From the IMG/VR virus record IMGVR_UViG_3300009537_003722, positions 1-23,201 of that record: DNA of 23,201 nt, one strand, 5' to 3'. Position numbers and translations under genes: made by a program. Positions 14,943-17,963 of the stretch are shown in pieces; position 1 is the first letter of the stretch; each line of letters opens with the position of its first letter. Under the pieces are notes generated by a model. That model saw only the letters and a list, made by a program, of their open reading frames with translations, made no database searches and was not told the origin of the DNA. This DNA comes from a virus.

Positions 14943-15095
14943 TTGACTGTGTCTCAGAATCACGATTCAACAGGGGTTAAGCGTTTGATCGCAGCGTTCT
15001 GCCGTGTTAACGGGCTATCCACTCCGAGAGCCGATTTTACGGATCACTATATTAATCTTAGGGAAGGTGATATTATTGATGGTACAAGCTGGTGA
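14943..15095 (+). CDS. small unknown protein, TTG start preferred
   Basis: 50 residues from TTG 14943, which has an excellent GGGAGG (14932-14937) five bases upstream. An ATG at 14913 gives 60 residues but lacks an SD and overlaps the previous gene by 13 bases. The end overlaps the next gene by 17 bases. The sequence VKRLIAAFCRVNG suggests a short helix; no family is recognised. It may be a small regulatory or accessory phage peptide, or a fragment. Confidence 0.5.
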   Translation: MTVSQNHDSTGVKRLIAAFCRVNGLSTPRADFTDHYINLREGDIIDGTSW

Positions 15096-15483
15096 CGATA
15101 TATTACGACAGATGGAGATCGATTTAAAAGGTGTTTACGAATTGATGCCTTCAGGCGCATTCGAGTGTAGGGCGGGGTGTTCTAAATGTTGCGGATCGCC
15201 CATCATTGTTTTCGCTCAGGAGAAGGCGAATATATATGCGTGTGGTACGCCTGCTAATGTTGTGCACGATGGGCGCTGCGCTTACTTGAGTAATGACGGA
15301 TGCGGTGTTTATAGCGTGCGTCCATTGATATGTAAAATTTTTGGTGTCTTAGATAAGGTTAATCCTCTACTTAAGTGCTGCGAAGGCAGAAGGTCGAAGT
15401 TGACTTCTAAAACGCAACGCAGGATACATAGTGAGGTTAAACGGGTAATTAATAAATATCGTAATTCGATGGTTTTATTGTAA
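15079..15483 (+). CDS. YkgJ-like cysteine-cluster protein
   Basis: 134 residues. ATG 15079 is chosen, with GAAGGTGAT about 10 bases ahead, because the upstream extension of the frame would overlap the previous gene far more. Cysteines C30, C34, C37 and C38 form the CxxxCxxCC signature of the YkgJ/UPF0153 group, with further conserved-looking C67, C75 and C85 (the latter in RPLICKIFG) and a C100-C101 pair. Such proteins bind zinc or an iron-sulfur cluster; their function is not established. In this context it could modify or regulate a nucleic-acid process, but nothing shows which. Confidence 0.8.
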   Translation: MVQAGDDILRQMEIDLKGVYELMPSGAFECRAGCSKCCGSPIIVFAQEKANIYACGTPANVVHDGRCAYLSNDGCGVYSVRPLICKIFGVLDKVNPLLKCCEGRRSKLTSKTQRRIHSEVKRVINKYRNSMVLL

Positions 15484-15492
15484 GGAGCACGT

Positions 15493-16056
15493 ATGAGGGG
15501 CATGAACATAAAGACTGTCAAAGTATCGGAACTGAAACCGAATCCTAAAAACCCAAGAAGCATTAGTGATGACGCTCTGTCGGGACTAGCCGCAAGCATA
15601 CAGAAGTTCGGCCTTGTTGAGCCCATCATCATGAATGAAACCACAGGCTACATTGTGGGTGGCCATCAACGGTTAAAAGCTCTGGAAAAGCAGGGAATAA
15701 AAGAAACAACAGTTGTTGTCGTCAATCTTTCCGAAAAAGAGGAGATGGAATTAAACGTTGCCCTGAACAATAAGGCTATTCAGGGCGACTGGACAAAAGA
15801 TATAGAAAATATTTTGAGTGGCCTGAAAGTGGATTTTCCGGAGGATTTCGAGACATTAAAATTCGATTCCCTTCTGGAAGAAATAAAGGACATTGATTTC
15901 GATATTCCCAAAGAAGAAAAAGAATATCAGGGCAACTGCGATGAAGATGAAGTTCCCGAGGTTGAAACGAAAGAGCCTATTACCAAGAAAGGCGACTTAT
16001 GGGAATTAGGGCGGTCTATATTCTGTCCTAAATGCGGGAAGAGGCATTTTATATGA
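15493..16056 (+). CDS. ParB-like domain protein beside DNA methyltransferases
   Basis: 187 residues from ATG 15493 (AAGGAG at 15482-15487). The ParB/sulfiredoxin-fold domain covers about 5-95, with KPNPKNPR and the signature VGGHQRLKAL (55-64). An acidic linker follows, then GDLWELG (168-174), the phrase that in fused ParB-methyltransferase proteins comes just before the methyltransferase. Here the chain instead ends in CPKCGKRH, half of a zinc ribbon, and stops where the first methyltransferase starts (ATGA overlap at 16053-16056). A one-base change in the TTTT run at 16047-16050 would fuse the two. It is not a partition protein: no ParA or centromere is seen. It probably helps target the methyltransferases. 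Confidence 0.82.
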   Translation: MRGMNIKTVKVSELKPNPKNPRSISDDALSGLAASIQKFGLVEPIIMNETTGYIVGGHQRLKALEKQGIKETTVVVVNLSEKEEMELNVALNNKAIQGDWTKDIENILSGLKVDFPEDFETLKFDSLLEEIKDIDFDIPKEEKEYQGNCDEDEVPEVETKEPITKKGDLWELGRSIFCPKCGKRHFI

Positions 16057-16952
16057 ACATCACATGTGATTGCGGCCATAAAATCCAGTATTCGGAAAAA
16101 GATGTGTTCTCCCACAAAGTTCTCTGTGGAGATTCTACAAGTGTTGACGATGTCGAAAAGCTTATGAGCGGAGAAAAAGCGGACATGGTGTTTACTTCTC
16201 CGCCATACACTGACCAGAGGACATATAAAATCGGCTCTTTCGATTGGGATGAACTTATGAACGGGGTATTTGCTGCCATACTCATTATCATCAAAGAAAC
16301 TACACATATTCTTGTAAATCTCGGCCTTTCCCACAAGAACAGGCAGGTAGATTTTTATTGGAACAAATGGCTGGAATACATGGCTGGTGCGGGATATCCC
16401 CTATTTGGGTGGTACACCTGGGACAAAGGCAGTGGTTTTCCTGGCGATTGGAACGGCAGACTCGCCCCGTCATTTGAGTTTGTATTCCATTTCAATAAAA
16501 AATGCGAAACGGCCAATAAATGGGTGCCAACGCAGGAAGAATCACAGAAGAAAGACCATTCCAACAAGACGTTCCGTCAGCCGGACGGGTCTTTCAAGCC
16601 GATATATTCTCTAGATAAGTCCAACCAGAAATATAAAGTTCCTGATTCTGTCATCAGAGTACCAAGGGCTAATACCGTTGGTCTTCTTTCCGGTCATCCG
16701 GCAGCGTATCCTGTCGCCCTTCCAGAGTTTGGTTGTAAAACATGGGCGCAGGAAAATGACATAGTGTATGAGCCATTCGCCGGTAGCGGTACGACAATAA
16801 TCGCCTGCGACAAAACAAAACGGCAGTGTCGGGCAATGGAAATATCGGAAGCTTATGTTGATATCATCATTGCCAGATATGTGAAGTTCGTTGGTAATAA
16901 AGGCATGAAACTTAACGGCAAGAAATATGAATGGAGCGAAGATGCACATTAA
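16053..16952 (+). CDS. DNA methyltransferase 1 (TSPPY type)
   Basis: 299 residues from ATG 16053 (GAGG at 16041-16044); an ATG seven codons upstream lacks a proper SD. The N-terminus CDCGH (5-9) looks like the second half of a zinc ribbon whose first half ends the ParB-like protein. Motif IV is TSPPY (48-52) and motif I PFAGSGT (241-247), the order typical of beta-class enzymes. TSPPY is more usual for N4-cytosine enzymes, but N6-adenine cannot be excluded. It would transfer a methyl group from S-adenosylmethionine to phage DNA, plausibly as protection from host restriction; no restriction nuclease is nearby. It is a paralogue of the next gene, sharing HK/R-x-LC-x-DST, DDVEKLM and the C-terminal LNG-x5-W pattern. 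Confidence 0.9.
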   Translation: MNITCDCGHKIQYSEKDVFSHKVLCGDSTSVDDVEKLMSGEKADMVFTSPPYTDQRTYKIGSFDWDELMNGVFAAILIIIKETTHILVNLGLSHKNRQVDFYWNKWLEYMAGAGYPLFGWYTWDKGSGFPGDWNGRLAPSFEFVFHFNKKCETANKWVPTQEESQKKDHSNKTFRQPDGSFKPIYSLDKSNQKYKVPDSVIRVPRANTVGLLSGHPAAYPVALPEFGCKTWAQENDIVYEPFAGSGTTIIACDKTKRQCRAMEISEAYVDIIIARYVKFVGNKGMKLNGKKYEWSEDAH

Positions 16953-17727
16953 TTGTGAGTGCGGCCATAAATTCGAATATAGCGATAATGATATTTACTC
17001 CCATCGTTTACTTTGTGCCGATTCCACGGTAATTGACGATGTTGAGAAACTTATGGATGGTGGTAAAACCGATATGGTCTTTAGTGACCCTCCTTACAAT
17101 GTCGATTACGAGGGGTACACAGAAGACAATCTCAAGATTCAGAACGATGCCATGTCCGTTGAAGATTTCTGTCAATTTCTCACGGATGTTTTTGCAAATT
17201 ACCGCATCGTTTGTAAGGGTACTACGAGCCTGTATATCTGTCATCCGAGCAAATACCAGCGTGAGTTTCAGAATGCCATTGAAAAGGCAGGCTTTGAAAT
17301 CCGCTGTCAGATTGTATGGGCGAAAAACACTTTTGCTTGGGGACATGGGCGATATAAATTTCAGCATGAACCCATATTTTACATCCATGTTGCCGGTGAA
17401 TCGGATTCATGGTACGGCGATAAAAGCCAATCAACACTTTGGGAGGAAAACAAACCCTCAGCAAGCAGGCTTCACCCTACCATGAAGCCTGTGGGACTGT
17501 GTATAAGGGCTATGAACAATAGCTCCAAGAAAAATGACATCGTATTGGATTTATTCGGCGGCTCCGGTACGACACTCATAGCCTGTGAGAAAACAGGTAG
17601 GCAATCAAGACTTATGGAAATAGACGAACATTACTGCGATGTTATCATTGAACGATACGTTAAATTTAGCGGGAATCGGGGGATCACATTAAATGGTGAA
17701 CATCATAAATGGGAGACACGTGCATGA
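16942..17727 (+). CDS. DNA methyltransferase 2 (DPPY type)
   Basis: 261 residues from ATG 16942 (GGAG at 16933-16936), overlapping the end of methyltransferase 1. It has the same N-terminal half-ribbon (CECGH, 5-9), then SDPPY (48-52) as motif IV and LFGGSGT (204-210) as motif I. DPPY points to N6-adenine methylation. Together with the upstream paralogue it suggests a tandem duplication followed by specialisation in target base or sequence. It also contains a central WAKNTFAWGHGRYKF region, probably for target recognition. The ATGA overlap at 17724 couples it to the following zinc-finger gene. Confidence 0.9.
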   Translation: MHINCECGHKFEYSDNDIYSHRLLCADSTVIDDVEKLMDGGKTDMVFSDPPYNVDYEGYTEDNLKIQNDAMSVEDFCQFLTDVFANYRIVCKGTTSLYICHPSKYQREFQNAIEKAGFEIRCQIVWAKNTFAWGHGRYKFQHEPIFYIHVAGESDSWYGDKSQSTLWEENKPSASRLHPTMKPVGLCIRAMNNSSKKNDIVLDLFGGSGTTLIACEKTGRQSRLMEIDEHYCDVIIERYVKFSGNRGITLNGEHHKWETRA

Positions 17728-17963
17728 GGGCTATCGGTCAAAAAGAAGATCATAAACATCGAGAAGGCAAGCGTAATAGCCCAAAAAGCGCTATCCGCGC
17801 TAAATGTTATCAGTGTATGTGCTCGTATGATGACGGGAGGGAGGAGTGTGGAATAGCAACATGCGCTTTATACCCGTATATGCCTTACACACAAAAGAGT
17901 GTTGAGCGGCGGCGTGGGTATATTAATAAAAGTAATGCAAAAGTAAATACGCCCGCTGTATAG
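17724..17963 (+). CDS. small cysteine-rich zinc-finger-like protein
   Basis: 79 residues from ATG 17724, overlapping the stop of methyltransferase 2, with GGGAG at 17711-17715. KSAIRAKCYQCMC, then C42, C47 and LYPYMPY, match a widespread phage/prophage pattern (KAIRAKC-x2-C ... C-x4-C-x-LYP) of unknown function, presumably zinc-binding. Such genes are often seen near phage DNA-modification or packaging genes. The terminator hairpin begins inside its last codons, making it the final gene of the long plus-strand array. Confidence 0.8.
   Translation: MRAIGQKEDHKHREGKRNSPKSAIRAKCYQCMCSYDDGREECGIATCALYPYMPYTQKSVERRRGYINKSNAKVNTPAV

Follow-up and report, generated by a model that had tools for sequence, protein, structure and literature searches.

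In the viral record IMGVR_UViG_3300009537_003722, a gene for a ParB_N-fold protein ends where a gene for a DNA methyltransferase (MTase 1) begins, and cysteine motifs resembling the two knuckles of a zinc ribbon lie on either side of the boundary. Does this boundary reflect one fused gene broken by a frameshift, or do two separate chains each contribute half of a single zinc site? The window, that is, the whole stretch of 23,201 bases analyzed here, encodes a replication module 5' of ParB (helicases, DNA polymerase, SSB, a UvsX-like recombinase, SbcCD, and a Holliday junction resolvase), and ParB is followed by MTase 1 and by a second methyltransferase, MTase 2 (Table 1). A CxxCxxCC (PF03692) zinc- or iron-chelating-like protein is encoded directly 5' of ParB (15004-15483), and an 84-aa cysteine-containing protein (CYQCMCSYDDG) that matched no family is encoded 3' of MTase 2 (17709-17963).

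The ParB-methyltransferase boundary

The first-pass annotation of this locus described a ParB end with CxxC and a methyltransferase start of MNITCDCGH, and both were confirmed at the ATGA boundary, where the MTase 1 ATG at 16053 lies inside the ParB stop in a four-base overlap. The ParB C-terminus reads GDLWELGRSIFCPKCGKRHFI (also given as ITKKGDLWELGRSIFCPKCGKRHFI), with CPKCGKRHFI as its last residues before the stop, and the MTase 1 N-terminus reads MNITCDCGHKIQY (also given as MNITCDCGHKIQYSEKDVFSHKVLCGDST). It was likewise correct that one extra base in the TTTT run between the knuckles yields a single reading of 486 residues; the MTase 1 frame is open 5' as far as 16032, and the ATG at 16053 is its best start. 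ParB retains, along with its ParB_N domain match, the GGHQR box (the conserved arginine box) and is probably a targeting or NTP-binding subunit. Both methyltransferases carry N6_N4 methylase motifs (TSPPY/SDPPY and FAGSG/FGGSG); by motif, MTase 1 would be m4C-like and MTase 2 m6A-like.

Table 1. Coordinates of features at the boundary (positions in the window unless a locus is named)
Feature	Position	Strand	Details
ParB_N-fold protein	15493..16056	+	187 aa; PF02195 E 2.4e-11; phrog_498, phrog_620
ParB C-terminal tail DLWELGRSIFCPKCGKRHFI, putative first zinc knuckle	15994..16053	+	CPKC codons 16024-16035
AAGAGG, Shine-Dalgarno-like	16039..16044	+	8 nt 5' of MTase 1 start
TTTT run	16047..16050	+	ordinary sequence; matches no known type of slip site
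MTase 1 (N6_N4_Mtase)	16053..16952	+	299 aa; PF01555 E 4e-27; TSPPY motif IV
MTase 1 N-terminal second knuckle MNITCDCGHKIQYSEKDVFS (putative)	16053..16112	+	CxC-G-H codons 16065-16079
MTase 2 (N6_N4_Mtase)	16942..17727	+	261 aa; PF01555 E 1.9e-29; DPPY motif IV
MTase 2 N-terminal second knuckle MHINCECGHKFEYSDNDIYS (putative)	16942..17001	+	CxC-G-H codons 16954-16968
HNH gene at ParB-MTase boundary	L135:7409-8041 and L154:5828-6349

MTase 2 and its CxCGH start were overlooked in the first-pass annotation. Its first 11 nt are shared with the end of MTase 1, and its N-terminus, MHINCECGHKFEY (also given as MHINCECGHKFEYSDNDIYSHRLLCADST), opens with MHINCECGH. Exact matches to the string TGYGANTGYGGNCAY occur at two places in the window, each directly 3' of a start codon, and allowing one mismatch gives three matches compared with 0.21 expected. 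Going by these counts, the CxCGH start on MTase 2 is not due to chance, and some 30 loci show the arrangement. The protein that precedes MTase 2 is MTase 1, which offers no CxxC partner for the MTase 2 half ribbon; one extra base therefore cannot pair every half, and at the level of sequence the MTase 2 half ribbon is decisive against a simple frameshift.

Age of the split

The order ParB, MTase 1, MTase 2 is also found on a viral contig of 59.7 kb (L001), where the ParB boundary is likewise ATGA. Its ParB tail reads GRSVYCPKCGKRHFVEL before the stop, and its methyltransferases begin with MKITCDCQH and MKINCECGH. Between the window and L001, the boundary linker differs in length by 6 nt, MTase 1 is 71% and MTase 2 79% identical, and the ParB core is 36% identical compared with 90% for tail residues 167-186. 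For this tail, dN is 0.10-0.14 and dS is 1.2-1.9, and dS is mostly saturated elsewhere. As judged from these rates, the ParB tail is under purifying selection as a separate tail and is not the product of a slip.

The L001 contig has two additional features. A 66-aa ORF 3' of MTase 2 (L001:6842-7042) starts with MLITCECGHTFSVEDA and is a third orphan second-knuckle, which might represent an MTase relic or another docking partner. The L001 copy of MTase 1 (L001:5001-5873) lacks approximately 12 residues around the HPAxYPV motif that are present in the window copy and thus may be inactive.

Two types of ribbon-bearing split operons

A scan with the pattern D-[LIV]-W-x-L-G-x4-CxxCG, which places no constraint on the methyltransferases, recovered 58 loci comprising 53 split ParB operons (including the L001 contig), one fusion, and four chance matches (L122, L134, L146, and L163). 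Because CxxCG is part of the pattern, the sample is one of ribbon-bearing operons of a single spacing; L115, from a ribbon pattern of the wrong spacing, was also a chance match. MTase start codons in the split operons were assigned by rule. Together with the window, the 54 split operons comprise two types. Type I (30 operons, including the window) has a single knuckle in the ParB tail, e.g., DLWLLGRVARCPRCGRLTDV before the stop, and the other in the MTase starts, e.g., MSECTCHHCGHRFEAE. In type II (24 operons), the whole four-cysteine ribbon is in the ParB tail, e.g., DLWLLGAYWECEDCGKKYDYAEGIEMKECPCG before the stop, and the methyltransferases begin with the cysteine-free MGKLKLKSKHRLLCGD. At least two cysteines are present in the starts of 48/48 scored type I methyltransferases versus 0/38 of those from type II (Fisher 2.7e-25, uncorrected for kinship).

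Many of these loci are near-identical, and the test quoted is therefore one made on a tree of 83 MTase catalytic domains from which the starts were left out. Operon type switches at least 12 times on this tree, with 8 switches forced by strong branches, and independent pairs are concordant in 8/8 cases (sign test p = 0.0078). Thus, MTase domains recur in both operon types, each with a start that fits the ParB tail. This covariation of cysteines strongly supports the first-pass suggestion of two polypeptides with one zinc site, while the zinc itself and the contact between the chains are inferred.

A finer correspondence is seen within type I. Tails with CGKxH (the window, L001, L124, L135, and L154) occur only with CxC-x-H starts, and other type I tails go with CxCxxC-like or CxxC starts; this match is concordant in 47/47 cases, with four independent changes, which are too few for significance alone. 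Three cysteines (CxCxxC) are common in type I MTase starts, such that the exact set of zinc ligands is uncertain. Where an operon encodes two methyltransferases, their N-termini are far more alike (0.34-0.77) than their catalytic domains (0.06-0.25), and an SPPY enzyme precedes a DPPY enzyme in 15 of the 21 type I operons with two methyltransferases. Tandem methyltransferases with near-identical starts and one full-ribbon ParB are also encoded by type II loci, among them L145 with three methyltransferases.

Relative to ParB, the MTase frame is +1 in 34 cases, +2 in 12, and 0 in 1 across the family. ParB and MTase are separated by an HNH endonuclease gene in L135 and L154, on the opposite strand in L154; one way in which the fused gene was split may have been such a homing insertion. 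The predicted fold downstream of the TTTT run in the window is no better than that of shuffled sequences (z = 0.02), and none of the slippery site, stimulator, or conserved frame relation characteristic of programmed -1 frameshifting was found. Given the HNH gene between the halves, the varied frames, and the unremarkable fold, fusion by frameshift is not the device used by this family.

Fused relatives and structural evidence

Alignment-based scans with MTase 1 recovered 72 viral and 36 genome loci; a scan of the genome collection with the MTase 1 sequence alone returned nothing useful. A total of 182 fused ORFs in 107 loci have an uninterrupted GDxWxLGxHRLxCGD junction, and none of them has two or more junction cysteines. 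H157 and H173, which match MTase 2 from residue 3, are ordinary ribbonless fusions. In the window this one-chain junction is instead split, with ribbon halves inserted. Tandem fused ParB-MTase pairs are common among the relatives, e.g., gp24 and gp25 of Acidithiobacillus phage AcaML1, whereas the window and L001 encode one ParB and two ParB-less methyltransferases with ribbon halves at the boundary.

Fused homologs with the ribbon, which the first-pass annotation had proposed searching for, are represented by a single example; other fusions are plentiful, yet the 182 checked lack a ribbon. This example, L137 (IMGVR_UViG_3300032561_000315), is a natural ParB-ribbon-MTase fusion with CxxC...CxxC at the junction of one chain, and its methyltransferase shares approximately 60-65% identity with window MTase 2 and the relatives of that enzyme. 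It is likely an ancestral or re-fused form. A model of L137 has a pLDDT of 86.6, with a very confident GDLWLLG strand and ribbon blocks at 70-77, and its predicted fold matches beta-class methyltransferases such as CcrM (6pbd) and M1.HpyAVI (5hfj). MTase 1 modeled alone has a confident core, and its residues 1-18 have pLDDT below 50 except residue 7. Such a start fits a half domain modeled apart from its partner, although a shallow alignment would look alike.

When joined, the window halves supply CxxC and CxC. The joined ribbon matches Pfam and NCBIfam ribbon profiles weakly (best E 0.04-0.06, below cut-offs), and its weak profile and PDB matches are to zinc ribbons and bL32. A tblastn search with the 44-residue joined ribbon found no homolog in annotated phages or plasmids.

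A proposed ribbon completed in trans and its alternatives

The explanation that best accommodates the anatomy of the split, its age and conservation, the physical separation of the halves, and the covariation of their cysteines is that one zinc ribbon is completed in trans by ParB and the methyltransferases, each of them a distinct chain; a probability of about 0.72 is assigned to this explanation. By this model, the operon would produce one ParB-fold subunit and two beta-class amino-methyltransferases as individual polypeptides whose translation is coupled. The methyltransferases of the common relatives are each fused to a ParB of their own via a GDxWxLG-xHRLLCGD junction; the ribbon would sit in this junction, with the gene boundary passing between the knuckles such that CPKC ends ParB and CxCGH starts the methyltransferases. 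The ParB tail and an MTase start would then contribute CxxC and CxC, respectively, to a single four-cysteine zinc site, clamping ParB onto the enzyme, and the shared ribbon would adjoin the GDLWELG and HKVLCGD strands that are sequence neighbors in the fused forms. In this arrangement zinc would be coordinated by the paired halves through a contact between ParB and MTase, and ParB may direct the MTase to DNA or regulate it with NTP. Since both methyltransferases carry a matching half, one ParB could serve either, by exchange or in a larger assembly, and given that MTase 1 is SPPY (m4C-like) and MTase 2 is DPPY (m6A-like), one ParB may serve two chemistries.

Among the alternatives, a sequencing slip or recent frameshift in a fused gene, as raised in the first-pass annotation, is hardly credible. 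A single base does restore one frame, and close fused families exist; however, the independent L001 contig, whose linker is of another length and whose synonymous sites are close to saturation, keeps the ATGA boundary, the ribbon-bearing split is found in approximately 50 loci of both types and in differing frames, and MTase 2 carries a half ribbon at its own start. L001, together with L135 and L154 with their intervening genes, refutes this explanation. Programmed -1 frameshifting at the TTTT run, which would produce some fused ParB-ribbon-MTase in addition to free ParB, is very improbable. The frame relation is the same in the window and L001 and TTTT precedes the boundary, but a canonical heptamer and downstream structure are absent, frame relations vary across the family, two operons have an intervening gene, MTase 1 has an ATGA start with its own Shine-Dalgarno-like site, and MTase 2, with its own start and half ribbon, is unreachable by a shift.

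The strongest competitor, albeit an unlikely one, is that zinc is bound but not shared: ParB tails would pair with one another in the manner of Rad50, and MTase starts would pair mutually, as MTase 1 with MTase 2 or as homodimers. A Cys4 site can arise from two CxxC tails in a homodimer, as Rad50 shows (PMC9569753), dimers are frequent among beta-class methyltransferases, and both window methyltransferases have like knuckles. Such separate sites nevertheless do not predict that MTase cysteines occur exactly where the second knuckle of ParB is missing, a relation that holds through eight switches, nor do they predict the match of CGKxH tails to CxC-x-H starts or the joining of both halves in L137. 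It is also conceivable, with a considerably smaller chance, that the pairing is real and the knuckles are docking or DNA-contact elements that bind a metal other than zinc or whose cysteines are redox active (disulfide). Cysteine pairs alone do not prove zinc; however, CPxCG and CxCGH are typical zinc knuckles, the weak matches noted above are to zinc ribbons and bL32, and the cytoplasm is reducing.

With a ribbon completed in trans as the preferred reading, a more general docking code can be proposed, at odds only slightly better than even. The ribbon halves would be matched plugs through which one ParB-fold targeting subunit recruits at least two swappable methyltransferases; an MTase domain moving between operons would acquire a start that suits the ParB tail already there, and either gene could carry the second knuckle, the MTase in type I and ParB in type II. 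If true, completion of a ribbon in trans would explain how one phage ParB-type subunit works with several methylation chemistries and would make available to protein engineers a compact zinc plug that can be encoded genetically. The ParB/MTase pair offers a concrete two-protein assay for the role of phage ParB domains toward methyltransferases. A caution for annotation is that, in phages of this kind, genes labeled as single-domain ParB or MTase may encode parts of one enzyme.

Comparison with known systems

The literature searched, which did not extend to subscription papers or preprints, yielded no account of a ribbon split between a ParB and an MTase, nor of a heteromeric complex with shared zinc in phage DNA modification. 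To our knowledge, few shared-zinc heteromeric complexes have been studied in depth. The novelty claimed in the first-pass annotation for this way of holding a subunit must be narrowed: ParB-MTase fusions and intermolecular zinc sites, including those of CxxC plus CxC composition, are already known, and the new part would be the division of a ribbon between ParB and MTase.

Fusions of ParB-CTPase folds to methyltransferases, with NTP binding, are documented (PMC12704722), and DNA nicking by a ParB-methylase fusion of B. cereus is cited in PMC5512222. The phrog_498 fusions (PF02195 and PF01555), such as AcaML1 gp24 and gp25, resemble the window in both domains, in the GDxWxLG...HRLxC motif, and, as tandems, in the order of SPPY and then DPPY enzymes; they differ in being single-chain and ribbonless, whereas in the window the chains are separate, one ParB accompanies two methyltransferases, and the ribbon is divided at the boundary. 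L137 is closer, with a like junction and a kindred methyltransferase, but is one polypeptide. HNH elements, free-standing or hidden, are known to invade phage methylase genes, as in the ShiLan domain (PMC11855218); ShiLan lies within the methylase frame, while the HNH gene of L135 and L154 lies at the ParB-MTase boundary, and both are cases of HNH in methylase loci.

Shared zinc as an assembly device is exemplified by the Rad50 zinc hook, in which CxxC elements of two chains hold one zinc (PMC9569753); this hook is homodimeric and is borne on a coiled coil, whereas the site proposed here would be heteromeric, joining ParB with MTase. The CD4/CD8a-Lck zinc clasp is intermolecular, pairing a CxCP motif with two cysteines of the partner chain (PMC12198760), and is like the proposed site in that short elements supply ligands from two chains. 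It differs in being a non-homologous eukaryotic signaling pair, whereas in the window the putative ribbon is split at the linker of the fused relatives and would be common to two enzymes.
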